From: Patescibacteria group bacterium
GTDB lineage: Bacteria; Patescibacteriota; Patescibacteriia; 2-12-FULL-60-25
DNA: 46,051 bases
NCBI GenBank assembly: GCA_018061755.1
Contig: JAGOTP010000009.1
Coordinates: 1 to 46,051, forward strand
Direction of reading: 5' to 3'
Within the stretch, counting starts at the first letter, position 1, and every line of letters starts with the position of its first letter. Shown one piece after another: positions 1,212-44,118 of the stretch. The notes under the pieces are model-generated. The model ran no database searches. It was not told where the DNA came from and saw nothing but the letters and a program-made list of their open reading frames with translations. The translations under genes and the position numbers were made by a program.

Positions 1212-4200
1212 ATGAGTCTTGCAAAAAGAATCCTCTCGAGCTTCGTCTCGTTGACGACGGTTCTCTCGACGGTTGGTACTGGTATGCTTGCGTTGCCAAA
1301 CGGCGCGTCTGCTGCCACGCTCGCCTCGGGTGACCTCATCAAAGCATCCGGTCCAACGGTGTATTACTACGCCTCGGATGCACGTCGCTATGTGTTCCCA
1401 AATGAAACCACGTTCTTTTCGTGGTTCCCAGACTTCTCGTCCGTTAAGACCATTACGGATGCAGAATTGGCTGCTATTTCACTCGGTGGAAACCTGACAA
1501 TCCGTCCAGGTACCAAGTTGGTTAAGATCACGACAGACCCTAAGGTCTACGCGGTCGCTCCAGGCGGTTTGCTTCGCTGGGTTGAATCTGAATCAATTGC
1601 TACTTCGCTTTACGGCTCAGCTTGGGCCCGCCGCGTTGTTGACGTTGCAGATTCCTACTTCACGAACTACGCTACTGGTCCTTCTCTCTCCACGGCTGTT
1701 CACCCAGACGGTACGCTCATCTCGTACGCTGGTGACTCAGCTCGTTACGTTGTCATGGGTGGCATGAAGCGCAAGTTCAACCCAGACTCAGCTTTTGCTG
1801 CGAACTGGTACAACGCTGCGAACGTGATCCAAACAACGATCATGTATCCAAACGGCAGTGACGTGACTGGCCGCGAGGCTATGATGGCTGACGCGATTTA
1901 TCGCACCGGCGTCGTAACCCCAGTTGCTGGTAACCTCATGGTTGCTTTGGCTTCTGACACACCAGCTCGTGCCACGTTGCCTCAGGGCAGCTCCGGCAGC
2001 CAGCTCGCGAAGTTCAACTTCACGGCCGGTTCCGCTAACGTTCGCGTCACGGGTCTCCGCGTTCACCGCGTAGGCGTTGGTGCTACGTCTGATTTCTTGA
2101 ACGTCTACTTGTACGACACGAACGGCACGCGTCTCACGACCGGCCGCACGATTAACTCTGTTACCCAGACGGTTGATTTCAACGGTCTTAACTGGACAGT
2201 TCCAGCGGGTCAGACTTGGTCGCTCGTCGTTGTTGGTGACGTCAAGGGTTCCATCACTTCTGGTGGTGAACACACCTTCGAACTTATGGACGCCGCTTCC
2301 GTCATTGTCGCCGCCTCTACGACGGCTACGATCGGTGGCTCGTTCCCAGTTCGTGGAAACTCCTTTGTGATCGGTACCACGAGCGCTGCTCGCTTGGACG
2401 TTCAGAAGGGTACTCAGCCATCCAACCCAAACGTTGGTGCGCTCCAGGCCGAAATTTCCAACTTCAAGCTCACGGCTAACACGAACGATGTCCGCATCCG
2501 CCGTGTAACCTTGTACCAAGGTGGAAACACGCCAAATACGGATCTCCGCAACTTCAAGTTGTACCAAGGCTCGACGCTTGTCGCCGAAGCCGCTGGTGTG
2601 AGCTCCAACAACCAAATTGTTCTTAACTTCACGGGTGAAGGCTACGACATTCCAAACGGAGTGACGCGCGTTTTCTCCTTGAAGGCTGATGTTAGCGGAC
2701 GTTCCACTAACACGATCAAGACCTACCTCGAATACTCATCAGACATCATGGCCATCGACCGTGTCTACGGATCCGGTGTGCTCGTCTGTAACGGTACTTC
2801 GACGAGTGGTTGTACCTCAAGCAATGGTTCATTCGACGGATCCGGTTCCAACCACATCACGCTTACCACCCAAGGTGGTCAGTTGACGGTTGCCTACAAC
2901 GGTCCTGGTACATCGAACGTTGCCAAGGGTCAGAACAACGTTGTGTTCATGCGCTTCGCTTTGAGCTCCCAGAGCTCGAACCTCGAAGTTCGTAACCTTC
3001 GTTTGGCTGTTGGTTCGACGAACGGTGGTCTCGTAGCTACGGGTACGTCCAGCTACACGGATTACATCCGCAACGTCCGCGTGCGTGACATGTCGAACGG
3101 TCAGGTTCTCCAGGGCCCAACGTCCGCCTCCGGTGGTACATTGGATCAGGCGAGCTCCCCAACGACGTCCACGTTCCTCTTCAACAACTCCATCTACTTG
3201 AACGCTGGTCAGACGCGTAACTTCGAAGTTCTTGTTGACTTGTACAACACGGACAACACCGATTTCATCGGTAAGAAGTACCGCGCTAGTTTGAACGCGT
3301 TCCAGTCAGGTGACGTTCGCGTCATTGACACGAACGAACAGGTTGCTTTGACGGACATCGTGCCAAACGCAGTCATTCCAGGTAATGAAATGACGGTGCA
3401 GGCCGGAAGTCTCACGGTTGCTCTCTCGGGTAGCCCAGCTTCCAGCAGCGTTGTGAAGCGCCAGGCAGATATCCCATCTCTTGGTGTGAACTTCACAGCT
3501 GGTGGTCAGAGTGACGCCTTGGTTACTGCTCTTACCTTGCTTGGTACGGGTGATATCTCAGGCACGTGGGGCGTGACGAACTTCGTCAACGTTATCTCGG
3601 CTTGTTCGCTCTACAACGGTACGACCCAACTTGGTCAGTCCCGTGTTCCAGATTCGAACGGTGTCATGAGCTTCACCAACCTTAACTGGACGGTTGCTCG
3701 TGGTACGACAGGTATGCTCTCGGTTAAGTGTACGGCTGACTCAGTCATTACGGATAGCAGCGACCGCTTCGCGGTTGGTATTTCTTCCGTGTCGGCTCAA
3801 GATCAGGACTCCAACACGGTTACCGTGACGGCTACTCCTGCTAGCAACAACGTAAGCGGTTCCAACACGCCTTCCACTGTCATCATGACGGTTCAGAGTG
3901 CTGGTACGGTTTCGTTGAACGCTGACAACATGCCACAGTCGACCATCTTGGTCGCTGGTAAGGCTGGTATCCCTAACGATACCTGGCATCGTCTCGCTCA
4001 GTACCGTGTTACGGCGCAGTACGAAGACATGTCGATCGACCGCGTGATGGCAACATCCTCTGGTCTTGGTCTCATGTATCGCGAAGTCGGTGTGGCGGTG
4101 AACGGTGCGGTGCGTGGAACGGCAAGCTTCTCGGGCGGCGCAAGCACGTCCAAGGATATCTTCCTGACCAGCCCAATCGTTGTGCCTAAGGATGGTAGCG

Positions 4201-5129
4201 TTGTTATCCAACTCATGGCGAAGTTGAACCCAATTGTGGCCAGCTCCTCCGTGTTGACGGGTGCAAATGCTGCTCGTTCCGGTCAGATCGTTCGTCTCGG
4301 TATCGCTTCGAACAACGTCACTGATCTAGAGTATGACTCCAGCTACGCAACGAAATTCAACGTTCGCGTAACGGGTCAGGCTTCTGGTGAACGTGTCTAC
4401 ATCGCGACCACGACGGCTACGATCTTGAACCAGGGTCTCTTCGGAAACTCCTTCGTTGTTCGTGCCACCAAGCCAACGGTTAGCCGTGTGGCCTTGACCT
4501 CGACCAACTTGGTTCCAGGTAGCTCCGCTGAGTTGTATCGCTTCAATGTACAGGCTGATTCCATGGGTCCTGTGGCTGTGAAGAAAGTGACGTTCCGCGT
4601 CGCTGCCAACACTTCCACGAGCCAGGTCAGCACGTTCTCTCTCACGAACTTCAAGGTTTTGAAGGGAACGCTCCAGATGAATACGAACGACTACAACGTC
4701 GTGAACGCATACACTGGTGTCTCGTTGAAGAATGCAACATTGCAGGCTCCTACGACGACTTACGTTGTGGTCTCCTTCACGGATCCACAGGTAATCGACG
4801 CTAACACGAGCCAGCAGTTCGCTTTGAAGGCTGACGTGAACAACTCGGTGTCTGGTGACATCGTGAGCACGGCCTTCGCTACTCAATCCGACAGCGCGGT
4901 CTACACGGGCTACCTCACGGTTGCCACGACCACGTTGGCTGGTACGGGTGTCAACCTCACGGGTCCAAACTTGGCCGAGAGTGTTGATGGCACTGGTATT
5001 GCTGCTGGTACCTTCGTCTGGTCGGATGTTTCCGACTCAGCTGGTGGTACGGCTACTTCCGGTGACTGGACGGACGACTTGTTCTTGCAGGACCTCACCG
5101 ACTCTCAGTCAGTGAGCCGCAACAGCTAG
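1212..5129 (+). CDS. putative S-layer / major secreted cell-surface protein
   Basis: A secreted protein of 1305 residues. The ATG at 1212 is preferred because it begins a textbook signal peptide: Lys5-Arg6, a hydrophobic core, and an ASA cleavage site after about residue 34. The mature N-terminus has a tyrosine-rich unit (VYYYASDARRYVFPN, then TFFSWF, residues ~48-72) with a shorter echo later (SARYVVMGG), a combination I recall from CPR S-layer-type proteins. The middle ~1000 residues are Ser/Thr/Gly/Asn/Val-rich beta-type sequence with few cysteines, suggesting tandem Ig-like domains. Near residue 1267 comes FVWSDVSDSA and then TSGDWT, a C-terminal signature I associate with the same group. 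Codon choice is strongly biased (Asn mostly AAC, Phe mostly TTC, Gly mostly GGT), unlike the flanking genes, which fits very high expression. A strong terminator follows. It is monocistronic and sits directly before the glycan locus, so it is a natural acceptor for glycosylation. S-layer identity is inferred. Confidence 0.75.
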   Translation: MSLAKRILSSFVSLTTVLSTVGTGMLALPNGASAATLASGDLIKASGPTVYYYASDARRYVFPNETTFFSWFPDFSSVKTITDAELAAISLGGNLTIRPGTKLVKITTDPKVYAVAPGGLLRWVESESIATSLYGSAWARRVVDVADSYFTNYATGPSLSTAVHPDGTLISYAGDSARYVVMGGMKRKFNPDSAFAANWYNAANVIQTTIMYPNGSDVTGREAMMADAIYRTGVVTPVAGNLMVALASDTPARATLPQGSSGSQLAKFNFTAGSANVRVTGLRVHRVGVGATSDFLNVYLYDTNGTRLTTGRTINSVTQTVDFNGLNWTVPAGQTWSLVVVGDVKGSITSGGEHTFELMDAASVIVAASTTATIGGSFPVRGNSFVIGTTSAARLDVQKGTQPSNPNVGALQAEISNFKLTANTNDVRIRRVTLYQGGNTPNTDLRNFKLYQGSTLVAEAAGVSSNNQIVLNFTGEGYDIPNGVTRVFSLKADVSGRSTNTIKTYLEYSSDIMAIDRVYGSGVLVCNGTSTSGCTSSNGSFDGSGSNHITLTTQGGQLTVAYNGPGTSNVAKGQNNVVFMRFALSSQSSNLEVRNLRLAVGSTNGGLVATGTSSYTDYIRNVRVRDMSNGQVLQGPTSASGGTLDQASSPTTSTFLFNNSIYLNAGQTRNFEVLVDLYNTDNTDFIGKKYRASLNAFQSGDVRVIDTNEQVALTDIVPNAVIPGNEMTVQAGSLTVALSGSPASSSVVKRQADIPSLGVNFTAGGQSDALVTALTLLGTGDISGTWGVTNFVNVISACSLYNGTTQLGQSRVPDSNGVMSFTNLNWTVARGTTGMLSVKCTADSVITDSSDRFAVGISSVSAQDQDSNTVTVTATPASNNVSGSNTPSTVIMTVQSAGTVSLNADNMPQSTILVAGKAGIPNDTWHRLAQYRVTAQYEDMSIDRVMATSSGLGLMYREVGVAVNGAVRGTASFSGGASTSKDIFLTSPIVVPKDGSVVIQLMAKLNPIVASSSVLTGANAARSGQIVRLGIASNNVTDLEYDSSYATKFNVRVTGQASGERVYIATTTATILNQGLFGNSFVVRATKPTVSRVALTSTNLVPGSSAELYRFNVQADSMGPVAVKKVTFRVAANTSTSQVSTFSLTNFKVLKGTLQMNTNDYNVVNAYTGVSLKNATLQAPTTTYVVVSFTDPQVIDANTSQQFALKADVNNSVSGDIVSTAFATQSDSAVYTGYLTVATTTLAGTGVNLTGPNLAESVDGTGIAAGTFVWSDVSDSAGGTATSGDWTDDLFLQDLTDSQSVSRNS

Positions 5130-28059: not shown

Positions 28060-29271
28060 ATGTCTGTTCTTCAGAATGCCATGAAACAGCTGGATCGGGC
28101 GGCAGCTCTCTTGCCTCAGTACGTAGCTACAGTTGAGCGCTTGCGTCATCCTGACCGCATTGTTCAGGTGACGATTCCGCTTAAACAGGGCGATACGACG
28201 AAATACTTCTCGGGCTATCGTGTACAGTGGAATAATCAGCGAGGGCCATATAAGGGAGGAATTCGTTTTCATCCGCAGGTGGATTTGGATGAAGTCCAAG
28301 CGTTGTCTTTTTGGATGACAATGAAATGTGCGGTGCTTGATTTGCCGTATGGCGGCGGCAAAGGAGGCGTATCAGTTGATCCGAAGGCTTTGACACAAGA
28401 AGAACGAGAAGAAGTCATGCGTGGCTTCGTTCGCCGTATGGCAGAGGTGGTGGGGCCTGAGCAGGATGTTCCGGCACCGGATGTAAATACTAATTCGCGT
28501 TTGATGGATGTCTTTGCTGAAGAATATGGCAAGATCGTTGGAAAGGTTTCGCCAGCGGTCGTAACAGGTAAGAGTCTTGAGCACGGTGGCTCAGCTGGGC
28601 GTGCAGAGGCGACAGCGAGAGGAGCCTTTGCGACCTGGAAGGCCTATCAGGACCTCTTACCTGCAGATCATGTCTGGTGCGTCGTGGTGCAAGGTTTCGG
28701 CAACGCTGGTCAGCATATTGCTCGTTTGTTCCATGAGGCTGGTCACAAGGTTATTGCTGTCTCTGACTCCCAGGGCGCGATCTTGAATGAGCAGGGGTTG
28801 GATATTTTGGCGCTTGAGACCTTCAAGAAAACATCGGGCAGTGTTGTCGGTTTCCCAGGATCGACCACCATGTCTCAAGAAGACTTGCTGACGACCAAGT
28901 GTGATGTCCTGGCTCCTTCTGCCTTGGAGAATCAAATTACGGGTGAGATTGGTCAACGTGTTCGTGCTAAGCTGATCCTTGAATTAGCCAATGGTCCGAC
29001 AACTCCAGAAGGGGATGAAGCGTTGCAGAAGAATGGTGTCACGGTCGCGCCGGATATTCTTGCTAATGCCGGTGGTGTTACGGTTTCCTATTTTGAGTGG
29101 TATCAAAATATGCACAATGAAACCTGGTCGGAGGCCGATGTCTACGCCAAGATGAATAAGAAGATGGAAGAAAATGCGCTGGCAGTACGCGAGCGTGCCA
29201 AGCGTTTCGCTTGCCCTGATCGTGTGGCTGCTTTCGCGCTTGCCATCGAGCGTTTAGTAGAAAAGAACTAG
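28060..29271 (+). CDS. gdhA: Glu/Leu/Phe/Val-type dehydrogenase, probably glutamate dehydrogenase
   Basis: A 403-residue NAD(P)-dependent enzyme interconverting glutamate with 2-oxoglutarate and ammonia. The N-terminal dimerisation part contains YKGGIRFHPQVDLDEVQALSFWMT-type sequence, and the catalytic loop LPYGGGKGG places the active-site lysine at residue 101, with Lys89 in the neighbouring MKCA segment. PAPDVNTN supplies the catalytic Asp region. The nucleotide-binding half has VVVQGFGNAGQHIARLFHEAG and ends with ANAGGVTVSYFEWYQN. Length is normal. It is one of the few genes here with a Shine-Dalgarno-like site (AAGGA, about 5 nt before the ATG). The specificity call (Glu rather than Leu/Val) rests on overall resemblance. 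Confidence 0.92.
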   Translation: MSVLQNAMKQLDRAAALLPQYVATVERLRHPDRIVQVTIPLKQGDTTKYFSGYRVQWNNQRGPYKGGIRFHPQVDLDEVQALSFWMTMKCAVLDLPYGGGKGGVSVDPKALTQEEREEVMRGFVRRMAEVVGPEQDVPAPDVNTNSRLMDVFAEEYGKIVGKVSPAVVTGKSLEHGGSAGRAEATARGAFATWKAYQDLLPADHVWCVVVQGFGNAGQHIARLFHEAGHKVIAVSDSQGAILNEQGLDILALETFKKTSGSVVGFPGSTTMSQEDLLTTKCDVLAPSALENQITGEIGQRVRAKLILELANGPTTPEGDEALQKNGVTVAPDILANAGGVTVSYFEWYQNMHNETWSEADVYAKMNKKMEENALAVRERAKRFACPDRVAAFALAIERLVEKN

Positions 29272-29292
29272 AAGATCTGTCTGTCAGAATAA

Positions 29293-29325
29293 AAACAAAC
29301 GCCCTCTGAAAGGGGGCGTTTGTTT
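29293..29325. terminator. bidirectional terminator shared by gdhA and the minus-strand RNA
   Basis: A 12-bp stem AAACAAACGCCC (29293-29304) with GGGCGTTTGTTT (29314-29325). On the plus strand it lies 22 nt after the gdhA stop. On the minus strand it is followed by further T residues (TTTTTATT), giving the better T-tract. Confidence 0.88.
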
Positions 29326-29517
29326 CAGCTTACAAAATTCCCCACAGGAACGTAGCGTGGAAGCTAGTGGTTCCTATGGGGAGGGATTCACACCAGAACT
29401 CAAGCAATCCGCACCCAAGAAATCTTGCAATAGGATGGTCCGAGCCGGAGCCCACACGCACCTAAAAATAAGATTCCATGCTTGTCGTGGATGCGGATTG
29501 CTAAAGATCTCGTGTAA
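29293..29517 (-). ncRNA. candidate structured small RNA of unknown family
   Basis: About 225 nt with promoter, three structured parts and a terminator, and no open reading frame. From 5' to 3' on the minus strand: a ~15-nt lead; a long rod made of a 14-pair stem (29502-29489 with 29416-29403), an 8-pair stem (29477-29470 with 29426-29419) and an apical TCCG/CGGA hairpin; a second hairpin of 12 pairs (29381-29370 with 29351-29340) containing TAGC/GCTA; then the terminator. Three positions that would be C-A or A-C mismatches on the plus strand (29414/29491, 29420/29476, 29345/29376) become G-U wobbles on the minus strand, all favouring a minus-strand RNA. A rod with internal bulges recalls 6S RNA, but the separate second hairpin does not fit that plan, and no tmRNA, SRP or RNase P core motif was seen. 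Confidence 0.68.
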
Positions 29518-29534
29518 CAACAAATACTACACGA
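29510..29534. promoter_or_regulatory. inverted repeat over the -10 box of the minus-strand RNA promoter
   Basis: TCGTGTA (29510-29516) and TACACGA (29528-29534) are perfect 7-bp half-sites around an 11-nt centre. The dyad covers the -10 box and the predicted start, the classic place for a repressor operator. Alternatively it is a 5'-end hairpin of a transcript starting further upstream, or, on plus, a hairpin seven bases ahead of a T-run. Confidence 0.4.
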
Positions 29535-29552
29535 ATACCCCTTTTTTGTCAA
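29524..29552 (-). promoter_or_regulatory. consensus promoter of the candidate small RNA
   Basis: On the minus strand TTGACA (-35, 29552-29547) matches consensus exactly; the 17-nt spacer is ideal; TAGTAT (-10, 29529-29524) matches 4/6 with all the most conserved bases except one. It is among the best sigma-70-type promoters in the window, and no protein gene lies downstream on that strand before the terminator. Confidence 0.8.
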
Positions 29553-29585: not shown

Positions 29586-31433
29586 TTAGTTCAGATTGTT
29601 GATCCCTGTCTGGTCAATAGCTGCCGCAGCAGGGTCGACGGTCGGTGTAAGGGCGGCAACTCCAACCAGACAAACGGCCTGCCAAGGGCGATAGACGCTC
29701 GTAAAGGTCACTTTCTTCGTTTCTCCATTGCCATAGGTCACGGTGTAGTCGACTTTGGCTGTCGCACCGGCATGGGCGGTTTCGGTGCACTTGGTCTGTC
29801 CGACGGGGAGATCGGTGGTTTCAATCAGTTTCTTTGGGGGTGGGGCAGTGATGTTTGTGACCACGGATTTGCCGATCACGGCCTCTCGACCGTCTTCTGT
29901 CCCCCAGACGGAGAAGACTACAATATCGCCTTGGAGTTCTGTTGTGATCAGGATCGCGTAGGGTGTGTCGTTCTTGAATTTGAAATCAGGAGATGGATCG
30001 TAGATGGTGGCATCAGTACCGGCTGGTTCATAGTAGCGAACACGGTAGCTATGGTTGCGGCGCTCTGTGATGAGGAGACCGGTATTCATGGCCGCACGGA
30101 AGGCGGTTGTGCCGATTTGGCACAAGCCTCCACCGAATTCAGGTAACGTTCGATTGCCTTTAATGACGAGTTCGGGGAGCCAGCCATGCTCACCGTCAAT
30201 GGGGCCTAACGTTTTGATCATCGAAAATTCTTCTCCAGACAGAACAATGGTGCCGTGTACTCGTTCAGCGCCTAGTTTAATATTTTTGCGACGATTAGTA
30301 GGGGATCCGCTGAAATCAGAGGTTCCGCGTCCGATCAGCTCACGAATTCCAAGGCGTTCAGCAGCTTCGCCACGAATGACAGGCGCTTGTGTTTCCACGA
30401 CGAGAGATGTGCTGGTGGCTTGGTTTAGCCAAGCCGTCTCGATATTTCGGAGTGTCTGAGCAGTATTAGGGCCGAGGCCTTCTTTCGGTGCGACAAAGGT
30501 TTTGAGCCTGCCCTGTTCGTCTAATTCCAATTCTCCATCTTGAGCAGCACGAGCACTTGCGCCTAGCCAGTTGCGGAAGGTTCGTTCAGCTAAGCTTGGA
30601 TCAAGACGAATCTGTGCTTGATGAGGGGCAGTTGAAGTCACAGTGATCCAAGTCGCTACTGTGCTAGTCGTGAGAGGCCAGCTTTTATTGATGGTTGAGG
30701 TCGCGACGAGCGTCAGCGTTGGTCTAAGAAGCCAGGCCTCTGCTTGGCTACGAGCTGGTTCTAGATCTTGCTTGGTGAGGTTCGGTTCACTTTCTTCAAG
30801 TGCAAGCTCAATCGTGGCGGTAGTTCTGCGATTAAGAGCACGTTCAATCCGGGTAGCTGATTCATTCCAGTCGAGTGATACGCCTGTTTCTTCGGGAACA
30901 ATGGTGAGAGCCAAAGGGTTGTTTTGGATCGAGAGGCTGGCATCGGCGGGAGCACGTAAAACACTGACTAGCTGGGGTTCTAGGGCTTGGCGTAAGCGTT
31001 CAGGATCAACGTCAACGGAGAGGGAGACTTCGGCTTTGGACCAGAGCGACAAACGCAAACGATCCCAGGCATTTTGAACGGGATTATTTGAACGGCCTAT
31101 CAAAAAGGCTTTCTCGACCAAGGTAGAAGATGGTTCGACGAAAGATCCGGTTGGCCCGTCGGCTTCTAAGGTATAGGTTTGATCTTTGATCTGGACTTTG
31201 ATGCTGCGGATTTGATCTTGTCCCAAGGCTTGACGGAGTGTCTCGGCAGCTTGCTCTTTTGAAAGGCCGCTTAGAGAGATGCCAGCGACTGAAACATGAG
31301 GAAGGATTTTGCCTTCGGAGACTTTGGCGATGTGGGTGCTCCAGGCTAGGGAACCGATCAAAACGGCACAAATCAAAGCGATGATAAGCGAGACGATCAG
31401 GAATGTTGAACGGTTATTGGGGGAAGATGTCAT
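29586..31433 (-). CDS. VanW-family protein with peptidoglycan-binding-like domains
   Basis: A 615-residue envelope protein with one N-terminal membrane anchor (STFLIVSLIIALICAVLIGS, ~9-28) and the rest outside the cell. Residues ~45-350 contain beta-alpha units of the PG_binding_4 type (GISLSGLSKEQAAETLRQAL and a second copy around FRNWLGASA). The VanW core spans ~366-500: GTSDFSGSPTNRRKNIKLGA, GEEFSMIKTLGPID, GGGLCQIGTTAFRAAM and ERRNHSYRVRYYEPAGTDA. A C-terminal G5-like beta region (~545-590) and a short hydrophobic tail follow. Members are linked to cell-wall binding and glycopeptide resistance clusters, but the enzymatic role is unresolved. Its start overlaps the stop of the 74-residue gene (ATGA), so the two are coupled. 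Confidence 0.92.
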   Translation of the reverse strand: MTSSPNNRSTFLIVSLIIALICAVLIGSLAWSTHIAKVSEGKILPHVSVAGISLSGLSKEQAAETLRQALGQDQIRSIKVQIKDQTYTLEADGPTGSFVEPSSTLVEKAFLIGRSNNPVQNAWDRLRLSLWSKAEVSLSVDVDPERLRQALEPQLVSVLRAPADASLSIQNNPLALTIVPEETGVSLDWNESATRIERALNRRTTATIELALEESEPNLTKQDLEPARSQAEAWLLRPTLTLVATSTINKSWPLTTSTVATWITVTSTAPHQAQIRLDPSLAERTFRNWLGASARAAQDGELELDEQGRLKTFVAPKEGLGPNTAQTLRNIETAWLNQATSTSLVVETQAPVIRGEAAERLGIRELIGRGTSDFSGSPTNRRKNIKLGAERVHGTIVLSGEEFSMIKTLGPIDGEHGWLPELVIKGNRTLPEFGGGLCQIGTTAFRAAMNTGLLITERRNHSYRVRYYEPAGTDATIYDPSPDFKFKNDTPYAILITTELQGDIVVFSVWGTEDGREAVIGKSVVTNITAPPPKKLIETTDLPVGQTKCTETAHAGATAKVDYTVTYGNGETKKVTFTSVYRPWQAVCLVGVAALTPTVDPAAAAIDQTGINNLN

Positions 31434-32955: not shown

Positions 32956-35900
32956 ATGGACTCTACGCGTTCTTTCCGTCGCATCGCCTTTATCCTCGTC
33001 ACTGCTGTGACGGGGTTAGCGCTTTGTTTGGGGCCGATTGAGCCAGCTCTGGCTCAGGCAACGAAGGAAATGCCAATTCCTTTCAATGTGCCATCGCCCA
33101 TGGCGGTTACCATTTCGGCCAACTTGCCAGAGGCAGCTAATCAAACCTACAAAAACATCTATACAGAATTGACACGCGCGGGTGTGATCGCCCTCACAAA
33201 TGCCACACAGCTGTTTTTGGGACAGATGGCCTACGATGCGGCAGAATATATTGCGACGGGTGGCAAAGGACAGGGCAAGCTCTTTTTTGATGGCAAGTTC
33301 GGGGAATATCTGACGAACGTGGGAAGTGACGCAGCGGGAGAATTCATGGCAAGTTTGAGTGATTCAAGCTTCTTCCGTGGCGTTGGGTTCAATCTGTGTC
33401 AGCCTAGAGATCCAGCCACTCTCTTGCGTTTGCAGGTGTCTTTGGGTGATTTGGGGAGTCAGCTCTTTCCTTCTTCATCTGATCTAAACTTGCCGAGCGC
33501 GGGTGGCTTGGCTTCGAGTTTGGGCTTCACACCGAATCAATACAATCGTCCACGACCACGTTGTGAATTCCAATCGGTTTTGGATAACTACGACACCTTG
33601 TTCCGTACCATGAGCGATGGGGACGTGATTCGTAACTTGGAACGGAGCTTTGATCCAGCGCTCAGTCAATTAGGAACGATTACGAGCGTATATAACCGCT
33701 TTCTGACGGATGTTCAGCGTCAGGTGAACGACGCTGCTTCTCAGCGTGAGGAGGGGAATGGTTTCCGCCCAGTTGAAGGATTGATCTCGGGCAACATCCG
33801 TACACCAGCTTCTGTTGTTGCAGAAGCTACAAACGAACAGATCGTCCGCAAGCCAGGAGCGGATCAGACGGCCATCGTTTCAAGCATGTTATCGAATGCT
33901 TGGGAGGCGGGTCCCATTCAGCTCGCAATTTATACCGGTTCGATTTTCGTGAATACGTTGGCCTCGAAGTTCATGCAGCGTATTTTTGAGAAGGGTTTAG
34001 GTGGTTCGTTTACACCTTCGCTTTCACTCGACTTGTCTGGCCCAGATTCGGTGGCTGTCTATGGAAAAACCGATGCGCGCAATGCCAATATCGATTTGAA
34101 AAATCCACCACCACAACAAGTAGCAGACTACGATGTTGTGTCTCAGATGCAGACTTGTTTGCCAGCTCAGCGTGGAACCTGGAATTGTGTCATGGATCAA
34201 TCGTTGGTTCAGGCGGTTCGTTCGAAGACACAAGAGGGGGGCGTTACGGTGCGTGAAGCCTTGGAACGCAACATGTTGCATGGCGATTGGCGTTTGATTC
34301 CAACCGTCCGCACACGGGAAAACCAAGACGACCAGTGTTATACCTACGCTTACTGTGCGGGCAACCTGCAAAAGATGCGTCTCATGCGTATCTTGCCGGT
34401 TGGTTTTGAACTGGCTGCGAATAGTGTAAATAACGTTCGACGTTGTGATACGCCAGAAGGTTGTGTGACGCTGTCGGAAGTAGTGAAAAATTTTGCTGCT
34501 TGTAATGACAATGGACAGCTCGATGACGCCCACCCTTGGTGTCACTTGATTGATCCGAACTGGGTTGTCACCTCTTTCCCTCAGCAATGTAGTTTGACGG
34601 GCTTCAGCGATACGTTGGTCTCGAGCAAGCTGCCGATTCGCAAAGAGGAATGTCAGGATGTGAAGACTTGTTTATCTCGCAACGATCGTGGCGAGTGTGT
34701 CGGAGGCTATGGTTATTGTATGGCGGAGCGTTCAGTCTACCGCTTCTCGGCCGATGTCTGTCCGGCCTACGCAGCCAGTTGTCGTATCTATACGAATAGC
34801 GCCGGAACGAAAGTTGGCTACTTGCGCAATACGATTGATCGCGCGGCTTGTGATGCCTCAAACGCAGGTTGTCTTTGGTACTCTACGCGTCGTGCCACAA
34901 GCACGTCTGAAACAGATGATTGGACGGCGAGCACTTCGACGGGTGAGCGCATGTACTTCAAGGCTGCGACGGCGGGTCAAGGGGTGGCCACCAAAGGTCT
35001 TGAGACCTGTCCAGCTTCTGAGGAGGGTTGTACGCGTTTGTATAATTTCACGCCGGGTAAAGCGGCTTTGAACTTGATGATCAACGGTTCATTTGAATCG
35101 GAAGATACAACGACTTCGACGGATGCGTTAGCCTGGCGCACGCCGGGTCTTGCGGCCCTGTCCGCGCCTTATTTTGAGGAGATGCGTAATGCTCGTTTGA
35201 CGGATTGGACGTCTGAAACGGCTTTCGTTGGTGGAAAATCAATTAAGTTACAGGGAACGGCAGGAATCGTGCCGCAGTCTGTCTGGCAGTCGGTTGAGAT
35301 CGTACCGGGACGTGTCTATAGCTTCTCGACGTACGCTCGTTCGATGGCTGGATCTGCTTCATTGAACGTAGGTGTTATCCCTTATCGTAATTCAGATGGT
35401 TCTGGGTCTGAGACGGAAATCGAGTTGCGTACGCGTTATCATTCCTCGCTTGAGTTGTCGACCTATAATATGGCCGACCGTACGTATAATGCTTATAACA
35501 AAGCCTATACGTCTGAGCTTACGACCGATTGGGCACGTCATGAATTCTCGTTTGTGGCTCCAACTTCGTCTCGCTATGCCTATATCACCTTAGGTGGCGT
35601 CAACGTCTTAGTTGATGGCATTCAACTAGAGGAAGGGGAGTACGCCACGCCGTTCGTTGAGACCTTTAGCTCTGGTTTGCCGACAGTCTTTATGAAGGTC
35701 GCACCGGATGAATTGCAGTGTTCACGTCCGGTGACCGACAGAAGTCGTTCTGCTTTGTGTGGGAACTTTGCTCAGACATGTAGTCAATTGGAGGCGGGTT
35801 GTCAGGGCTACCAGGATCAAGAAGGTGGTCAGCAGATCCCAGCTATTCTGTCTGAAAATGACCTGTGTCCAGCCATGTGTGTTGGATACGCTGAATATCG

Positions 35901-38900
35901 TAAAGCGCCGTCTTCGTTCGACTTGGTCAAGGATATTGATCCACGCTTCAGCGATCCAGAGGAGGCAACTTCCACCTATTTCATCCCTGGGACGGCTGGT
36001 CAGTGTACACAGCAAGATGTTGGTTGTGAGGAATTCACCTTGTTGGATGATAACGGTGCGTCTGATGGCGCCACGGCGGCCTACAGCTATTTGCGTGCCT
36101 GTGAAAAACCAGGAACTGACTCCGAAACCTACTTTACGTGGGAAGGGGCGGATACGGTTGGTTATCAGCTGCGAACCTGGAGCTTGAAGCGTGATACCGG
36201 TCCTTTCGACCTCGGTCCACGTATTTTGACGAAGATTCAAGCGGATCAAATCAGCTTCAAGGAACCAGATACCTGTAACGAAGGCAGTTGGAGAACGGCA
36301 GCTGATCCGGATTGTCGTCAATTCTACGATGCTCGTGGCCGTATCTTCTATCGCTATTTCTCACAGACGATTCTTTCAGCGAATGAATGTACGAATGTCC
36401 GTTTGACGCGCAGCAGTCGCAATGATTGTGAACGTACCGGTGGTCGTTACAATGAACGTGGTGAATGTACCTACGGTGCTTATCTGCCAGAAAGTCGCTC
36501 GTGTAACGCGAGAGCCACCAGCTGTCGTATGTATATGGGAGCGAGTGCTGGAAACACGCAAGCCACCTTCCGTCAGTCGTTCCGTGAAGACTTTGCTCCG
36601 TTCGGTCGTCGTGGTTTGACCACTTCGACGGAAGCGCTGTTGGTGGGCGATGTGTCTGTCAAAGTGGGAGATCCGGGTGTGTCTGGTGAGCCAGAACGAC
36701 CTCTGGGTTATGCGCAAACACGTGCTCTCTTCGATTCGAGTGAAACGGCTCTATATCGCGCGACATTCTGGGCTAAAGCGCCAGCTACAAGTACGAGCAT
36801 CACAGTTCGCACCACGCGTGAAGATGGAGGCGGCGAAGCCGTGATCGGTACGGTCCGTCTTACTCCAGAGTGGCAGCGTTATACAGTCGGTCTGTTCGAA
36901 GGCGCTCCAAACGCTTCTAGTACCTATATTGTCTTTACCGCTCCGCTCTTGCGCAGCGCTGGCTTCGGCTTCTACTTTGACGAAGTGTCTGTGACTCGTG
37001 TGCAGGATGTGGTCTATGTTCGAAACAATACGTGGACGACCCCAGCTCAGTGTGATCAGGGATTAGATGGAGCGGATGAACCACAAGCCATGTTAAACTG
37101 TAAGGCTTACACCAATCGTGTCGGTCAGACGGTTAACGCGCGTCGCTTCACTCGTTTGTGTCGTGAGACGGCTATTGGTTGTAGTGCCTTCGTGGATACA
37201 CGCAACACGGATGAAACGTATGCTCGTCGCTTTGTTCAGCGGAACCCGATCGACCCAACTCGTCATGTACCATCGGTCGTAGTTCGTCCAGCTGATCGCT
37301 ACATCTACTTGATTGATGATCCAGCTAAGCGTTGCAACAGTCAGAACATGAGCTGTCGCGCCTTTGGAAAACCGAAATTGGCCCCAGACCGTCAGCGTTT
37401 GGATGTCGAACGTCCGTATGAAACGGTTTACTACAAAGATGATATTACGCGTTACGACAGCGCTTTGTGTAAGCCATCGGAAGCCTTCTGTGCGGAATTC
37501 AAGTTCGGGACGGTCAAGGAATATTTCCGCGATCCAGCCACCAGCGTTTGTGAATATCGTCAACCAGTTACAACAGAAGCTTCAGCTGGAGTACCGAGTG
37601 AGACCTTGCTAGGAGGTTGGTACGTAAAGGGTTCAGACGCGACACCTTGTTATCCAAGTATTTTGGAAAACGGTCGTACCTATGGTATCGCTCGTTCTGG
37701 TGATCAGACCTATAAGGGGTACGTCGGTGCCTGTGAAGAAGCGGCGGGTGAATGTATCGAGCTGCGTGATATCAACGACACGAGTGATCCAGCTCAACGC
37801 GCAGGCAAGTCCTATTTCTACATTAAGAATGACCGTCTGGATGTCTCGACCTGTAATGGTCAGGTAGACCTTGGTCGTGGTTGTGTACTCTTCCGCGACA
37901 TGAGTAGTGGTGCGCTAACCTACAACGCTCGTGCCAGTTATGAGCAGTACAAGACACAGGGCTACAAACCGGTCACACCAGTCGATTGTCGAAATAATCC
38001 GGAAAATCCGGCCTGTGTTCAAGGTGGGCGTTGTCGTGGGACGCGTGCAACGGTGACACGTCGTATCAGCGGTGATCCAGGCACGGCCTATAACAATGAT
38101 CAAGACGCTATTCTTCAAGTTCGTGGTACAGCAGTACCTTGGACAGGGGATGGAATCTGTCGCACGGATGACGACTGTCGTGTGGTGCCGAACGTCACGA
38201 ACCCTACGGTAATTACCTACAACGTAAACAATGGTGGTGCCTTGGAGCGTCGTACGACTTCTACTGCAGTTGTAGTCACGGAAGCTAACTGTCAGGCTCC
38301 GCCACCAGATCAAGCCAACGATGCCAACCTTTTGTTGAAGGTTTCGGTTGATCGTGAATGTTCGCAGTGGTTAGGTTGTCGCAGTTCTGAAACGGTGCTC
38401 GATCCTTCGACGAACAAGTACAAGGAAATTTGTAGTGTGCCAGCTCTGTGTGACAAGGGATCAGGTGTTGCGAACGATCAATTCTGTGCCAGTTATGTTG
38501 ATCGTCGTTCGACTTCGACAGAGCCTATTCTGGCTCAGGGCCAGGTGCTGACTGCTTCCTTGTATGCCGGTCGTGGTCTGGGATTAGGCCAGCGTGATTA
38601 CTCTGGTTACGCTATTCCGGACTCGTTCCAAGTCATGGACTTACAGAACGTGCGGGTGGCAGTCGAGGGTGCTAAGAATATTCCAGATGCTGCCTTCCGT
38701 TTGTCGCAGGAATATCGTTTGACGGCGGCGATTCCGATGCCTCCATTGCGTCGTATCACGGTCGGCGGAGTCACTCGTTATCAGCACACGCTTCGTCCAG
38801 GGCTGAATCAGGCCAAGATTTTGAACGAATACCAATGGTCGGATGCCTCTTCTGATGGTTTGGCTATCTCGAATCCAACGCTTGCCTTGTGTAAGCATGT

Positions 38901-41900
38901 TTCCTCTGGTCGTATCGGTTACTATATTCCGAGTCAGGCGGCTGATGACCGTCGATCGGCAAATTGTTATTTACCGGTCAACACGTCTTCTGAGTTGTTC
39001 AACTTCGATAAAGTTTCTCAGACATTCTCAGCGAGTGTCGATGCGGCTAACGCAGCCTTATTGACACGTGCTTATCCTCCCGCTGAATGTCGCGCTCAAC
39101 CAGAACAGGATGCTCCATATCCAGCTTCCTTCACAACGGATTGGGACATGACGAAGAATCCACCAAAACCATTGCGCCGCTTGGCTGGCTTCGCATCCGC
39201 CAACACCTGTGAATTTGGCGAAGACTGCAGCTGTACCTATAAGCGTGTCGAATACGAAAGTTCGCCAGCGGTGAAGTTCTACAATCAATACTCACAATCC
39301 AGTCCGCCTGGTGTGTGTGTTGGTGGTCCTCGCGATGGTCAGTCGTGTGTGCCGAGTAAGATCTTCAATGCAGGAACGAATGTTACAACGGCTCCAGCGG
39401 ATCCAGATGGTGGACAGACGGATGAGGCGACCAGTAATTCTGGTGCTCGTGCCAACGCGGTGAATGATGCTAGTTCCGAGCAGTTGTGTGGTCCGCCGGA
39501 GCTTGGTGGGCGCTGTATGCCGTTCAAGGCCGTCACTATCATTCGTGGGACGTTCGGCAGCTGTTTGGAGCGTGACTTGAGTCGTACGATCGGCCAAAAT
39601 AAAGATCTGACACCTTGTCTGACCTGGAATCCGACCCTGCTTCTAAACGGCGACAAAGATCCATATCACTACGAGCAATCGGCTGGCTACATGCCTCCAC
39701 AAAACTCCGGTCAGTACTACTGTCTCTCCAATGCTCGTAAACCAAAAACTGTTCCTTTGAACTCCAATTTCTTCTTCAAGACCCCGGGCGAAGGCGGGAC
39801 ATACTCTGGCAGAATCACCAAGCTGGGTTACTTTGATGGCCTCACGTCCGATGGAGATCTGGCGGAAGGGAATGATCTTGGTGCCCGTATCGATGGCGGC
39901 GAACCGGCTGGCTCAAATGTGTCATATGAATGTGAGCTGACGGATGATGACCAGGACGTGGGAGGATTCTCTGCTGATTTTTCGGCCTTACGTTTGATCA
40001 ATACTGGCCGAGGAGCTCGTCAGTACTGGGAAACATTCTTCCGTATTAGTCCGGCTGCCTTTGCTAAGGCATACCATGGCCGTGACGCAACGACGGAAAA
40101 TGACATCATGCTTTCCATTTCGGATCGAAGTATTGGATATATTGGTCTAAGTCCCATTAGCTCGCCGAACTCAACGGCTCGTTTGGCCTGTGCTTATAAC
40201 CAAGATTGGGTAGACGGTATCAGTACGCCTGATTATACGGACATCAATGCAGTTCATGGTCAGGACTCGCAATGGCAGCAAAAGTTCAATGCGGATTTCA
40301 AGGGCGTCTTAACCCGCTCGTCTGAAGATCTCATTATCGATCCGGCCTCAGCGTCTGGTGCTTCAAACGTCTTGCGTGATCCTTGTATTGAGACGACCGC
40401 CGCCTACCGTGGTCAGACTTGCTACTTCAAGACCTGGGAAACCGGCTACCGCACGGTGGAAGGGGATGATAAGACGAAATTCGTTGGCTTGTCGGCTGGG
40501 AATCGGGAAGATGGCTCGATTAGTCTGACGGGCTCACGCCGAACTTTCGAAACACTTCGTATTTCTACCTACAACGCCAAATGTGACCAGACAAAGCCGT
40601 ACTTCTCAGTGCGTGCCGTGTTCCAGTCGAAGATAAATACGGGTGATCGCGCTCCATTACCACGCAGTGAATTCGGGACGATTGCTACTCAGTGGACCAT
40701 GGCTGGTTTCTGGGTCACGGCCTGCGGCGGAGCTTCTACGGACGAGCATTACATCTACATGCGGCCTCGCGTAGAATACAGCGATGTCTGTCGTGAATTG
40801 GCGGAAGTTGTGAGCCGTGACTCGAAGCAAGATGCTGCCTTTACGGATCGAGTCTGGAAAGATGGAAACTTCACAATTCCAGTCTTGGGTATCAGCTACA
40901 ATGCTCGTTACTCGCCGTTCTCGAGCGCCTTGAATACGCGTAATCCTGGCGTTGATCCGCTCTTCCAGACGGGTCAGGAAGTAGTCGGCTACTCTCGCTT
41001 GAATCCTCCAACGTTCCTTGCAAGCGGCTACCGCACCTACTACTCCAACGACCCTGCGCCAAAGGATAAGTGGGCTCATCTCACGAACATCTTCGCGCGT
41101 GTTTATAACATCTATAAATACCACGAATCACAGGTAGCAAACGGTCAAACAGCTTGTCTTGCGGGTCCAAACAAGGGGCAGAAGTGTACACCATCGGGTG
41201 ATGGTACATCTCCCGACTGTAGTTCTAATGGTCGTTGTGATGCTAGTCGTCTGGCCGCTTCTGGTGTGACTGAATTTACGGCTGAACGTTGTAATGCCTT
41301 ATCTGGTATCAATGCTGGTCTCACCTGTTTGCCGGGTGAGCGGCGCGAAGATTGTCATATCGCCCCGATGCAGCTCACTGGAAGCGGTGTAGATTTGCGT
41401 ACTCTTCCTTGTCTAACGCAGCCAGGCTGGAGAAGAGAAGGTGATCTTTGGATCAATGGAAGTGCGCCGGGGGTTGCCCAATCGGCAGCTGCTACAGCGG
41501 GAGCCTTCCGCTGTCCAAACACTCCTGCCTCCCTACGTCGAGATGTTATAGGAAACGCCTGGGGTGGCCTCGCTTGGACGGCTGGTGTTCGTGGTCATCT
41601 GTGCAGTGCTCCAACGGATCAGGGAGAAATCGTAGAAGGCAGTGAGGAATGCCCAGAGCGTATTGTGAATGGATTAGAAATTGCGCCAGCTTCCGGTGCC
41701 CCTATCACAGCTCAGGGTGATCGAAGAATGCAAGTTCAATGTGTGCCTAGAACGGCAGGAGTCGCCATTACGCGAACGGCGCCTGGTCGTTGTCGTGTCG
41801 TGGTTCCACCTTATAGTATCAACGTCCCTGGTAAGCCTGCCTTTGAGATGGCTGGTTTCTCAACCAACCCAGATTCTGAAGGGTATGCCTACGGTGAATG

Positions 41901-44118
41901 TACGACGACTGAAGATTGCTCTTTCACGATGGATAACTACTATTTGTCGAATGCGCCAACCATGTTCGACACTCGTATGTTTGCCAGTAGTCGCTCGCTG
42001 CAGATGTCTTCTACAGCAGATACGCGACGTGGGAGCTTCACGGCGGGGGGCTGTGGTACTTGGCCTCAGAGCATCTGTCGTGGACTCGCTTCGGGTGGAA
42101 TGTGGATTGTGAATACGGGAAACCCTCGTTTGGAGAACGCGAGTGCGGTTTACGAAGCGCCATCCTATACAACGGCAGGACGTGGCGTAAACCTTGGGAG
42201 AGATTTCCGTCAGATTGAATATACGTTCCGTTATCCGGGAGCTGTTCAGGCGACGGGTTATCAGGGAATGATCCTAGTCGGTGCGTGTATCCAAGCGGAT
42301 AATCCTCGCAGCGGTGCCAGTACGTCTCGTGGTCTGTGTACGGGTGGTACGCGTGACGGCCGCGTCTGTGGAACTGATTCCGACTGTGTAGCGGTTGATT
42401 CGGTAGCCGATCGACCATTGAGTCGCTGTGGTCCGGTGTCTACTCGTGCCAGTGATAACGCTCCTTGGGAGCCGGTTTCTGAATGTAGAATAAATGACAC
42501 AAGTTTGCAGCCCGCTGGTTCGCCAGGTGTGAACTTGAACAATGACAACAACATCTGTACGCATGAACAGGGGTATGTGCCGCGTATCGATCTTTGTCCA
42601 AATCCGAATGATCAATACTGTGGCTTGATCGCTTACAACGTCCGTCGTCCGCTTGATTCAGTTGCTACAGCGGCTCCAGCCCGCTTGCCGACGGATGTGA
42701 CACTGGGTCTTCATAAGCTGCCCTACTTGCTCGGTGAAGGCGACGTGGATGCACCAGATACCTATAGCGCTACCTACCTCCCACGTCCTCCGATGGTCGC
42801 CGCTCCAGACATTCGAAACTGTCCTTCTCCTGGTAAGTGTCAGGTTCAGGGTCTGAATAAGATGTCGCTTGACGGTTCGTCTGAGGGAATCGTGAGTGTT
42901 CCAAGTAGCCAAGCTAAGAGCGTCCTGCGTTTCTACGCCTGGGCCGCTCACAACCAGATGCCGCTTCGTTCGATCAATCTTGATTGGGGTGATGGACAAG
43001 TACAGGCCATCAACGACGGAAAACTCAAGAACCACAAACCTTACTGTGCGGTTCGCAAAGAGTGTGTGACGATCAGTCGTAGCGCTGGTGTATCTCGTGA
43101 CAAGGTCGATTCAAATGGGCTGACTTGTAACACAGACAACGACTGTCCGACGGGTGGTGGTAGCTGTCAGGCGATCGGTACCTGCCGAGACAATACGGGC
43201 ATTCTGTGTACGAACGATTCACAGTGTCGCAGTTCATCTTCCAGTAAAGACGTCTGTCAGATCCGTAATTTCTTCGGAAATAGTGCAGAAGCCTGTGAAG
43301 AAAACTACTTCGAGTTTACTCACCTCTATACCTGTAACGGTCCGGGTAGCTTGCCACTCTGTCGTCGTCCAGCGTTGACGGGTCGCACGACTGGTGGTCA
43401 AGAAGTGGTTCCAGCCAGTGTCGAATTGACTGGTGGTTGTCACTACGGTCGCTACGAAGCCGACATGATGAACGGTCGACAAACGACGGATCGTGCCACC
43501 TGCGATGCCTCGGCTGGTGTCAGTCCGCTGGTCGCCTGTATCCGCTCAGTCAACCAGCGTCTCGGTTTGACCGGCACGGCTGCTCTGGCTGAAACGACGG
43601 AGGCTGCCACTGCCAATGGAATCTCATGTGTGACACGTATTCCTGAGACTGGAACGAACGCCAACCACTGTGAACGCGATCCAAACCGCATCTGTAACCT
43701 CGCTGATGTAAACAGCTGTGCTCCAGGCGATCGCTGTCTGCCAAACTTGGCTCCAACCGGTGGTTGCTGGGATGATCAAGTCCAAGTCTGTCGCTTCACT
43801 CCTCGTGTCATGGTCCAAGACAACTGGGGTTGGTGTACGGGAGAATGTCGAACGACGAGAGACAGTGGGGGAGCGGCAGCTGATGATCGTAACCCTTCCG
43901 CTGGAGGACCGATTGCGCTGCATCCGTACGGTGGGTGTTATGCCGCGACGCCGGTGGGTGCTGAGAAGACGATCATTGATAACGCTGCAAACTTCAATGA
44001 TAGAGTTCCTTTCCGAAATGAGTGCAGAACAAGTCTTCCAACATCGGGCGCTGGTAATCAGGAGCTAAGACCTTGGATTGTTTATCCGGGCAGCATCAAT
44101 CTTCGAAGTAGTCGCTAA
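32956..44118 (+). CDS. giant secreted cysteine-rich protein (3720 residues)
   Basis: The largest gene here, about 24% of the window and roughly 400 kDa. A signal peptide (RIAFILVTAVTGLALCLG, cleavage near ALA at ~33) precedes a helical N-terminal region (~35-340) with a LFLGQMAYDAAEYIATGGKG segment and a Cys pair, a type I recall from other CPR giant proteins. I count roughly 137 cysteines, mostly TGT codons. From ~480 to ~1600 a C-x5-GC-like motif recurs (near 684, 941, 1017, 1402). Two jelly-roll segments resembling CBM4_9 modules lie at ~705-885 and ~1208-1340. The C-terminal half has a CxGGxxxGxxC motif (near 2121, 2734, 3127) and many CxxDxDC knots. A PKD-like NLDWGDG at ~3342 and its FTHLY end at ~3454 are separated by a Cys-rich insertion. 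No C-terminal membrane anchor is visible. Adhesion to a host or matrix is inferred only. Confidence 0.85.
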   Translation: MDSTRSFRRIAFILVTAVTGLALCLGPIEPALAQATKEMPIPFNVPSPMAVTISANLPEAANQTYKNIYTELTRAGVIALTNATQLFLGQMAYDAAEYIATGGKGQGKLFFDGKFGEYLTNVGSDAAGEFMASLSDSSFFRGVGFNLCQPRDPATLLRLQVSLGDLGSQLFPSSSDLNLPSAGGLASSLGFTPNQYNRPRPRCEFQSVLDNYDTLFRTMSDGDVIRNLERSFDPALSQLGTITSVYNRFLTDVQRQVNDAASQREEGNGFRPVEGLISGNIRTPASVVAEATNEQIVRKPGADQTAIVSSMLSNAWEAGPIQLAIYTGSIFVNTLASKFMQRIFEKGLGGSFTPSLSLDLSGPDSVAVYGKTDARNANIDLKNPPPQQVADYDVVSQMQTCLPAQRGTWNCVMDQSLVQAVRSKTQEGGVTVREALERNMLHGDWRLIPTVRTRENQDDQCYTYAYCAGNLQKMRLMRILPVGFELAANSVNNVRRCDTPEGCVTLSEVVKNFAACNDNGQLDDAHPWCHLIDPNWVVTSFPQQCSLTGFSDTLVSSKLPIRKEECQDVKTCLSRNDRGECVGGYGYCMAERSVYRFSADVCPAYAASCRIYTNSAGTKVGYLRNTIDRAACDASNAGCLWYSTRRATSTSETDDWTASTSTGERMYFKAATAGQGVATKGLETCPASEEGCTRLYNFTPGKAALNLMINGSFESEDTTTSTDALAWRTPGLAALSAPYFEEMRNARLTDWTSETAFVGGKSIKLQGTAGIVPQSVWQSVEIVPGRVYSFSTYARSMAGSASLNVGVIPYRNSDGSGSETEIELRTRYHSSLELSTYNMADRTYNAYNKAYTSELTTDWARHEFSFVAPTSSRYAYITLGGVNVLVDGIQLEEGEYATPFVETFSSGLPTVFMKVAPDELQCSRPVTDRSRSALCGNFAQTCSQLEAGCQGYQDQEGGQQIPAILSENDLCPAMCVGYAEYRKAPSSFDLVKDIDPRFSDPEEATSTYFIPGTAGQCTQQDVGCEEFTLLDDNGASDGATAAYSYLRACEKPGTDSETYFTWEGADTVGYQLRTWSLKRDTGPFDLGPRILTKIQADQISFKEPDTCNEGSWRTAADPDCRQFYDARGRIFYRYFSQTILSANECTNVRLTRSSRNDCERTGGRYNERGECTYGAYLPESRSCNARATSCRMYMGASAGNTQATFRQSFREDFAPFGRRGLTTSTEALLVGDVSVKVGDPGVSGEPERPLGYAQTRALFDSSETALYRATFWAKAPATSTSITVRTTREDGGGEAVIGTVRLTPEWQRYTVGLFEGAPNASSTYIVFTAPLLRSAGFGFYFDEVSVTRVQDVVYVRNNTWTTPAQCDQGLDGADEPQAMLNCKAYTNRVGQTVNARRFTRLCRETAIGCSAFVDTRNTDETYARRFVQRNPIDPTRHVPSVVVRPADRYIYLIDDPAKRCNSQNMSCRAFGKPKLAPDRQRLDVERPYETVYYKDDITRYDSALCKPSEAFCAEFKFGTVKEYFRDPATSVCEYRQPVTTEASAGVPSETLLGGWYVKGSDATPCYPSILENGRTYGIARSGDQTYKGYVGACEEAAGECIELRDINDTSDPAQRAGKSYFYIKNDRLDVSTCNGQVDLGRGCVLFRDMSSGALTYNARASYEQYKTQGYKPVTPVDCRNNPENPACVQGGRCRGTRATVTRRISGDPGTAYNNDQDAILQVRGTAVPWTGDGICRTDDDCRVVPNVTNPTVITYNVNNGGALERRTTSTAVVVTEANCQAPPPDQANDANLLLKVSVDRECSQWLGCRSSETVLDPSTNKYKEICSVPALCDKGSGVANDQFCASYVDRRSTSTEPILAQGQVLTASLYAGRGLGLGQRDYSGYAIPDSFQVMDLQNVRVAVEGAKNIPDAAFRLSQEYRLTAAIPMPPLRRITVGGVTRYQHTLRPGLNQAKILNEYQWSDASSDGLAISNPTLALCKHVSSGRIGYYIPSQAADDRRSANCYLPVNTSSELFNFDKVSQTFSASVDAANAALLTRAYPPAECRAQPEQDAPYPASFTTDWDMTKNPPKPLRRLAGFASANTCEFGEDCSCTYKRVEYESSPAVKFYNQYSQSSPPGVCVGGPRDGQSCVPSKIFNAGTNVTTAPADPDGGQTDEATSNSGARANAVNDASSEQLCGPPELGGRCMPFKAVTIIRGTFGSCLERDLSRTIGQNKDLTPCLTWNPTLLLNGDKDPYHYEQSAGYMPPQNSGQYYCLSNARKPKTVPLNSNFFFKTPGEGGTYSGRITKLGYFDGLTSDGDLAEGNDLGARIDGGEPAGSNVSYECELTDDDQDVGGFSADFSALRLINTGRGARQYWETFFRISPAAFAKAYHGRDATTENDIMLSISDRSIGYIGLSPISSPNSTARLACAYNQDWVDGISTPDYTDINAVHGQDSQWQQKFNADFKGVLTRSSEDLIIDPASASGASNVLRDPCIETTAAYRGQTCYFKTWETGYRTVEGDDKTKFVGLSAGNREDGSISLTGSRRTFETLRISTYNAKCDQTKPYFSVRAVFQSKINTGDRAPLPRSEFGTIATQWTMAGFWVTACGGASTDEHYIYMRPRVEYSDVCRELAEVVSRDSKQDAAFTDRVWKDGNFTIPVLGISYNARYSPFSSALNTRNPGVDPLFQTGQEVVGYSRLNPPTFLASGYRTYYSNDPAPKDKWAHLTNIFARVYNIYKYHESQVANGQTACLAGPNKGQKCTPSGDGTSPDCSSNGRCDASRLAASGVTEFTAERCNALSGINAGLTCLPGERREDCHIAPMQLTGSGVDLRTLPCLTQPGWRREGDLWINGSAPGVAQSAAATAGAFRCPNTPASLRRDVIGNAWGGLAWTAGVRGHLCSAPTDQGEIVEGSEECPERIVNGLEIAPASGAPITAQGDRRMQVQCVPRTAGVAITRTAPGRCRVVVPPYSINVPGKPAFEMAGFSTNPDSEGYAYGECTTTEDCSFTMDNYYLSNAPTMFDTRMFASSRSLQMSSTADTRRGSFTAGGCGTWPQSICRGLASGGMWIVNTGNPRLENASAVYEAPSYTTAGRGVNLGRDFRQIEYTFRYPGAVQATGYQGMILVGACIQADNPRSGASTSRGLCTGGTRDGRVCGTDSDCVAVDSVADRPLSRCGPVSTRASDNAPWEPVSECRINDTSLQPAGSPGVNLNNDNNICTHEQGYVPRIDLCPNPNDQYCGLIAYNVRRPLDSVATAAPARLPTDVTLGLHKLPYLLGEGDVDAPDTYSATYLPRPPMVAAPDIRNCPSPGKCQVQGLNKMSLDGSSEGIVSVPSSQAKSVLRFYAWAAHNQMPLRSINLDWGDGQVQAINDGKLKNHKPYCAVRKECVTISRSAGVSRDKVDSNGLTCNTDNDCPTGGGSCQAIGTCRDNTGILCTNDSQCRSSSSSKDVCQIRNFFGNSAEACEENYFEFTHLYTCNGPGSLPLCRRPALTGRTTGGQEVVPASVELTGGCHYGRYEADMMNGRQTTDRATCDASAGVSPLVACIRSVNQRLGLTGTAALAETTEAATANGISCVTRIPETGTNANHCERDPNRICNLADVNSCAPGDRCLPNLAPTGGCWDDQVQVCRFTPRVMVQDNWGWCTGECRTTRDSGGAAADDRNPSAGGPIALHPYGGCYAATPVGAEKTIIDNAANFNDRVPFRNECRTSLPTSGAGNQELRPWIVYPGSINLRSSR

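Follow-up and report, generated by a model that had tools for sequence, protein, structure and literature searches.

Few noncoding RNAs are kept in single copy by almost a whole bacterial class, the familiar ones being RNase P RNA, tmRNA, SRP RNA, and 6S RNA. Loss of the SRP has been reported in the Parcubacteria, and YidC has been discussed as a substitute for it (Nelson and Stegen 2015, PMC4508563). Here, we describe another such RNA, encoded in a large class of tiny, uncultured, genome-reduced Patescibacteria, ABY1 (below, the class), and missing from Rfam. It lies in a 46,051-nucleotide stretch of contig JAGOTP010000009.1 (assembly GCA_018061755.1, Patescibacteria group bacterium), all of which is referred to as the window. 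Gene signals, strand, structure, and distribution establish it as a genuine gene for a structured RNA, with a transcription unit of its own and present in almost all ABY1 genomes sampled; its expression is inferred.

The RNA gene and its strand

The first-pass annotation of the window had proposed an unassigned structured RNA gene on the minus strand, and our analysis supports that proposal. The claimed promoter (TTGACA, a 17-nt spacer, and TAGTAT) held, matching the consensus at 10 of 12 positions, as did the noncoding sequence of about 225 nt leading to a terminator, which is predicted from sequence, and the fold of the window's RNA into a rod, a second hairpin, and a terminator hairpin (Table 1). 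The second hairpin exists here but is not conserved; because 28 relatives in the same family run from the rod into other sequence or a terminator, we regard it as peculiar to this genome. An operator-like dyad, also claimed, is present but not supported as a functional element: a comparable dyad arises in 5% of shuffles, it was absent from all 23 relatives tested, and its right arm simply makes up the 5' side of the rod's outer stem.

Table 1. Coordinates of the RNA gene, its parts, and its neighbors within the window.
Feature	Position	Strand	Basis or remark
Promoter TTGACA-17-TAGTAT	29552-29524	minus	10/12 consensus positions
-35 box TTGACA	29547-29552	minus	sequence
-10 box TAGTAT, 17-nt spacer	29524-29529	minus	sequence
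Dyad TCGTGTA-11-TACACGA	29534-29510		not supported as functional
Predicted RNA, start to terminator tail	~29517 to ~29290	minus	sequence; about 225 nt
Rod-shaped RNA core, ~130 nt, conserved and covarying	29389-29517	minus	folding, covariation
Model match over the rod	29386-29521	minus	
Internal-loop module, 5' strand CA[CGACAAGCAU]GG, near-invariant	29476-29489	minus	
10-nt bulge CGACAAGCAU inside module 5' strand	29487-29478	minus	
Module 3' strand UC[U]UG, opposite the 10-nt bulge	29416-29420	minus	
Apical stem-loop, site of conserved UGG...CUCG element	29434-29462	minus	
Second hairpin	29340-29383	minus	folding
Intrinsic terminator hairpin and T tail	29291-29325	minus	near-perfect palindrome
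vanW-family gene, PG_binding_4 and VanW domains	29586-31433	minus	conserved syntenic neighbor
Glu/Leu/Phe/Val dehydrogenase gene (gdhA-like)	28060-29271	plus	convergent with the RNA

The RNA is placed between an upstream vanW gene on the same strand and a convergent gdhA-like gene, and the terminator palindrome likely also ends gdhA transcription arriving from the other side. BLAST finds a single copy in the RNA's own genome, the second match being the terminator palindrome pairing with itself. No tRNA or tmRNA was found within the window. Elsewhere in the window are two very long open reading frames without a Pfam match (32956-44118, plus strand, 3720 aa; 1041-5129, plus strand, 1362 aa).

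That the minus strand is the transcribed one had been argued from G-U pairs, and this claim held, in the absence of RNA-seq data, on the evidence of folding, of G-U asymmetry across the class, and of a conserved promoter. The minus-strand fold reaches -108.9 kcal/mol (z = -9.4, with no shuffle equally good) versus -88.2 kcal/mol (z = -6.3) for the plus strand, so the strand call stands. Stem cells across the class hold 326 G-U versus 55 A-C combinations, which fixes the minus strand as that of the RNA. Of 51 class loci, 45 have an exact TTGACA ahead of the RNA and 47 have a promoter scoring at least 9/12, with 11.4 expected from shuffles. Since the next downstream gene is antisense to the RNA in 41 of 51 class loci, the RNA is not a riboswitch; a riboswitch or cis-acting leader is likewise excluded by the RNA's own terminator and, in the window, by the convergent gdhA.

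Structure and conserved core

Covariation shows that the structure of this RNA is under selection, and the check among homologues suggested at the first pass returned very strong covariation. In the class alignment, 93.1% of cells are paired and two-sided changes occur in 40 of 44 pairs (59 sequences); the covariation score is 0.761, versus 0.213 for shuffled alignments, with 0/500 reaching the observed value, and 0.11-0.18 when the structure is slid. Fitting this alignment to a family model biases it toward that model's structure. A structure-free alignment of the family, made with MAFFT, already contains compensatory change in 20 of the 44 pairs.

The most conserved part of the RNA is an internal loop in which CA[CGACAAGCAU]GG stands opposite UC[U]UG, with a near-invariant core of 14 nt. 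Variation is 0.12-0.25 bits at the four pairs next to the bulge, versus a median of 2.0 for the other pairs, and one of the four, a G-U pair, is retained in 58 of 59 sequences. The apical UGG...CUCG element is also conserved, with an apical consensus of about UGGC-UUCG-GCUCG. A 14-letter core that hardly changes suggests an important housekeeping role, although this is an inference. Because paired letters are frozen along with unpaired ones, a docking site for a protein or a tertiary contact would fit better than a bare antisense seed. A small-protein gene finds no support, as no reading frame is conserved from the module's invariant AUG; frames starting there stop after 3-31 codons or leave the core, and they differ among members.

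Our best explanation is that this structured RNA gene of ABY1 yields a trans-acting housekeeping RNA whose near-invariant internal-loop module would dock a conserved protein or complex. More tentatively, it may be a highly expressed, 6S-like rod that binds RNA polymerase holoenzyme through its internal opening and modulates the enzyme's activity. Taken as a whole, this explanation is slightly more apt to fail than to hold, there being no expression or binding data; expression, action in trans, protein docking, and the identity of the partner are all inferred rather than shown.

A possible alternative is that the RNA acts in trans as an antisense RNA, with the 10-nt bulge CGACAAGCAU as the seed for a conserved target RNA. 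In its favor, the bulge is single-stranded within a covariation-supported structure and near-invariant across the class. Additionally, in the class member G205, a 13-nt perfect complement occurs in an apparent rsmH coding region (G205:C1 605706; loci L299-L350), a match of which ~0.03 are expected by chance and which is found in one genome only. Against this alternative, the flanking pairs and the facing strand are equally frozen and would not be needed for a seed, complementarity to vanW mRNA is at chance level, and sister-class forms of the RNA lack the seed. Ribosomal RNA fares no better as a target: pairing of the bulge with 16S rRNA (TGCATGGTTGTCG, G205 243199; one mismatch) was rejected, being equalled by 6% of shuffled seeds, and complementarity to 23S rRNA is equalled by most of them.

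Genomic neighborhood

The sequence retrieved around the RNA contains a vanW gene at 45 of 54 loci from the class, at 29 of 30 from the family, and at 3 from sister classes, in some cases with another gene between vanW and the RNA. The two genes are convergent in most of the class and on the same strand in the window's family. This linkage, together with the presence of a single vanW in G205, speaks for a further alternative, namely that the RNA is a dedicated regulator of its neighbor vanW and thereby serves a cell-envelope function. We consider this unlikely. The orientation differs between the class majority and the window's family, which leaves no room for a shared mechanism in cis or by antisense pairing; complementarity to vanW does not exceed chance; and the linkage may be vertical synteny, given that Hsp20-, ClpP-, and RuvB-like neighbors recur too.

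In recurrent flanks of ~3 kb (L062-L116), the RNA is faced by an Hsp20-like gene and vanW and is flanked on its opposite side by a ClpP- or RuvB-like gene. Neighbor names were read from translations, and Pfam was run on the window's vanW only.

Distribution, diverged relatives, and a phage copy

Within its own family, a plain DNA search located the RNA in 38 of 41 genomes, and in other families of the class it turned up 9 more. With a model built from 29 family members (R1), it was found in 239 of the 286 class genomes sampled, usually in one copy each. A second model (R2), for which roughly one sequence was taken per family (59 in all), recovered it in 31 of 33 class genomes within an even sample of the phylum, and one of the two class genomes missed, G002, carries the RNA in partly masked form. 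A scan of named genomes for the 14-mer pattern returned Uhr-, Magasanik-, Falkow-, Kerfeld-, Komeili-, Jackson-, and Buchananbacteria, lineages that we take to be members of class ABY1. Chance matches to the pattern in ~8 unrelated bacteria and archaea fail the model; these candidates (in Novosphingobium, Nitrosovibrio, Eisenbacteria, Thorarchaeota, and others) were accordingly rejected and act as a negative control. One contig labeled 'Lysobacteraceae' passes the model, has 30% GC across the RNA, and is likely misbinned.

Some members of the class depart from the usual form. Buchananbacteria carry two diverged RNA copies in tandem, ~220 nt apart (L084:2784-3137, L181:393-758, L130, L135), and these recall the two 6S RNAs that some Firmicutes have. 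In the class member f21 (L271:2979-3187), additional hairpins give the rod a branched insertion past the conserved module.

The sister-class families f132, f147, and f175 retain the rod and replace the bulge, with CCG in f132, CCUC in f147, and a small hairpin in f175. A later model, R3, scores these relatives at 1e-7 to 1e-19. As these sequences themselves went into building R3, independent support comes from the earlier R2 match and from synteny, the RNA again facing vanW in f132 and in one f147 genome. Weak model matches in f124, f140, and f143 (E 0.003-0.02) were not counted: the f140 sequence, with its promoter and matching stem, is possibly a true relative, the f124 match is uncertain, and inspection of the f143 match revealed no comparable rod.

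The RNA is also found in a phage. Two IMG/VR contigs (L231:4190-4324 and L232:1-123) represent one phage lineage, in which the flanking genes encode Erf, a RecE-type exonuclease, ParB, and PAPS reductase. The phage copy keeps the module and the apical G..CUCG, and its stems differ. Such a copy hints at competition for a valuable host component, which counts toward another possible explanation: a protein- or ribosome-docking housekeeping RNA of some other kind (in hibernation, as an RNP scaffold, or as a decoy), neither 6S nor SRP. The evidence from structure and distribution supports this rival as it does our best explanation. Against it, there is no positive evidence for any particular partner.

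Comparison with known RNAs

A check against Rfam had been suggested at the outset. Our scan of Rfam 15 found no family at the gathering threshold and only chance-level matches below it. No paper on this RNA was found in the open-access literature searched, a search that did not cover most subscription papers or preprints. The RNA is a new family, belonging to none of the known families tested.

The first-pass annotation had seen no landmark of tmRNA, SRP RNA, RNase P RNA, or tRNA, and this held, with tmRNA and RNase P RNA encoded separately in a relative and the SRP model unmatched. In that relative, G205, tmRNA (121 bits) and class A RNase P RNA (187 bits) are genes of their own, ruling out both identities; their detection means that Rfam models work in this class. 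This RNA resembles tmRNA and RNase P RNA in being a class-wide, single-copy structured RNA, and no other features are shared. With antisense small RNAs it has in common its own promoter and terminator and an exposed, conserved single-stranded stretch; it differs from them in its frozen flanking pairs, in the lack of a found target, and in a conservation that is class-wide rather than genus-wide.

The SRP RNA model (RF00169) matched none of 57 class genomes, and with relaxed filters 36 genomes gave one chance-level match (E 2.4). The Ffh M domain (PF02978) was absent in 28 of 28 class genomes, with controls positive in 14 of 14, and no convincing SRP GTPase was seen among 13 class genomes. Where this RNA occurs, neither canonical SRP RNA nor Ffh is present. 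These missing components favor the view that the RNA is the partner of an unknown protein-targeting particle replacing the SRP, and a near-universal, single-copy rod would suit a particle scaffold. Even so, this seems unlikely, as the loss of Ffh is phylum-wide whereas detection of the RNA is largely confined to ABY1 plus a few further families, the SRP domain IV signature is absent, and no partner protein is known. Compared directly with bacterial SRP RNA (4.5S/6S, RF00169), the RNA shares the rod, the single copy, and the housekeeping distribution; it differs in having no GNRA/AGCA domain IV motif in its apical consensus and no Ffh as a partner.

Across the phylum, PF02978 is missing from 379 of 380 genomes (controls 14/14), the sole match coming from a 190-contig assembly. 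These counts broaden the loss already published for Parcubacteria.

Our preferred reading, a docking RNA that is tentatively 6S-like, takes 6S as its working hypothesis because of elimination and anatomy. Like 6S RNA, this RNA comes from a single gene with a sigma-70-type promoter, forms a long rod with closing and terminal stems, has its conserved letters at one internal opening, and is inferred to act in trans. The 6S model (RF00013) has no match in the window, none in the RNA's own genome at E<=10, and none over the cut-off in 115 class genomes; given that it recovers only 5 of 14 controls under the same filters, this absence is weak evidence. The bubble of 6S RNA is single-stranded on both sides, whereas the opening here is one-sided, with 10 nt facing 1 nt. 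The loop lacks the A/T richness of a melted -10 region, the invariant letters are unrelated, the core is shorter (~130 nt), and sister-class forms swap the bulge for 3-4 nt (CCG, CCUC). With two defining 6S features having failed, the model match and the two-sided bubble, we do not file the RNA as 6S, and the first-pass remark that a 6S-like RNA was conceivable survives only as a functional analogy.

The RNA bears on how Patescibacteria manage to transcribe genes or target proteins when the standard machinery is missing, and the covariance model and 14-nt signature make it directly testable in existing metatranscriptomes. If it is truly 6S-like, its function would vary a known theme and the novelty would lie in the RNA family, the case then showing how widely 6S RNA can diverge; otherwise, it would be a new RNA machine. 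A bolder reading, which we are inclined to doubt, sees an ABY1-wide housekeeping RNA with a new protein partner and mechanism, in an SRP-less phylum and with a functional core also borne by a phage. That reading would set this RNA level with 6S, SRP RNA, and tmRNA in its distribution across ABY1.
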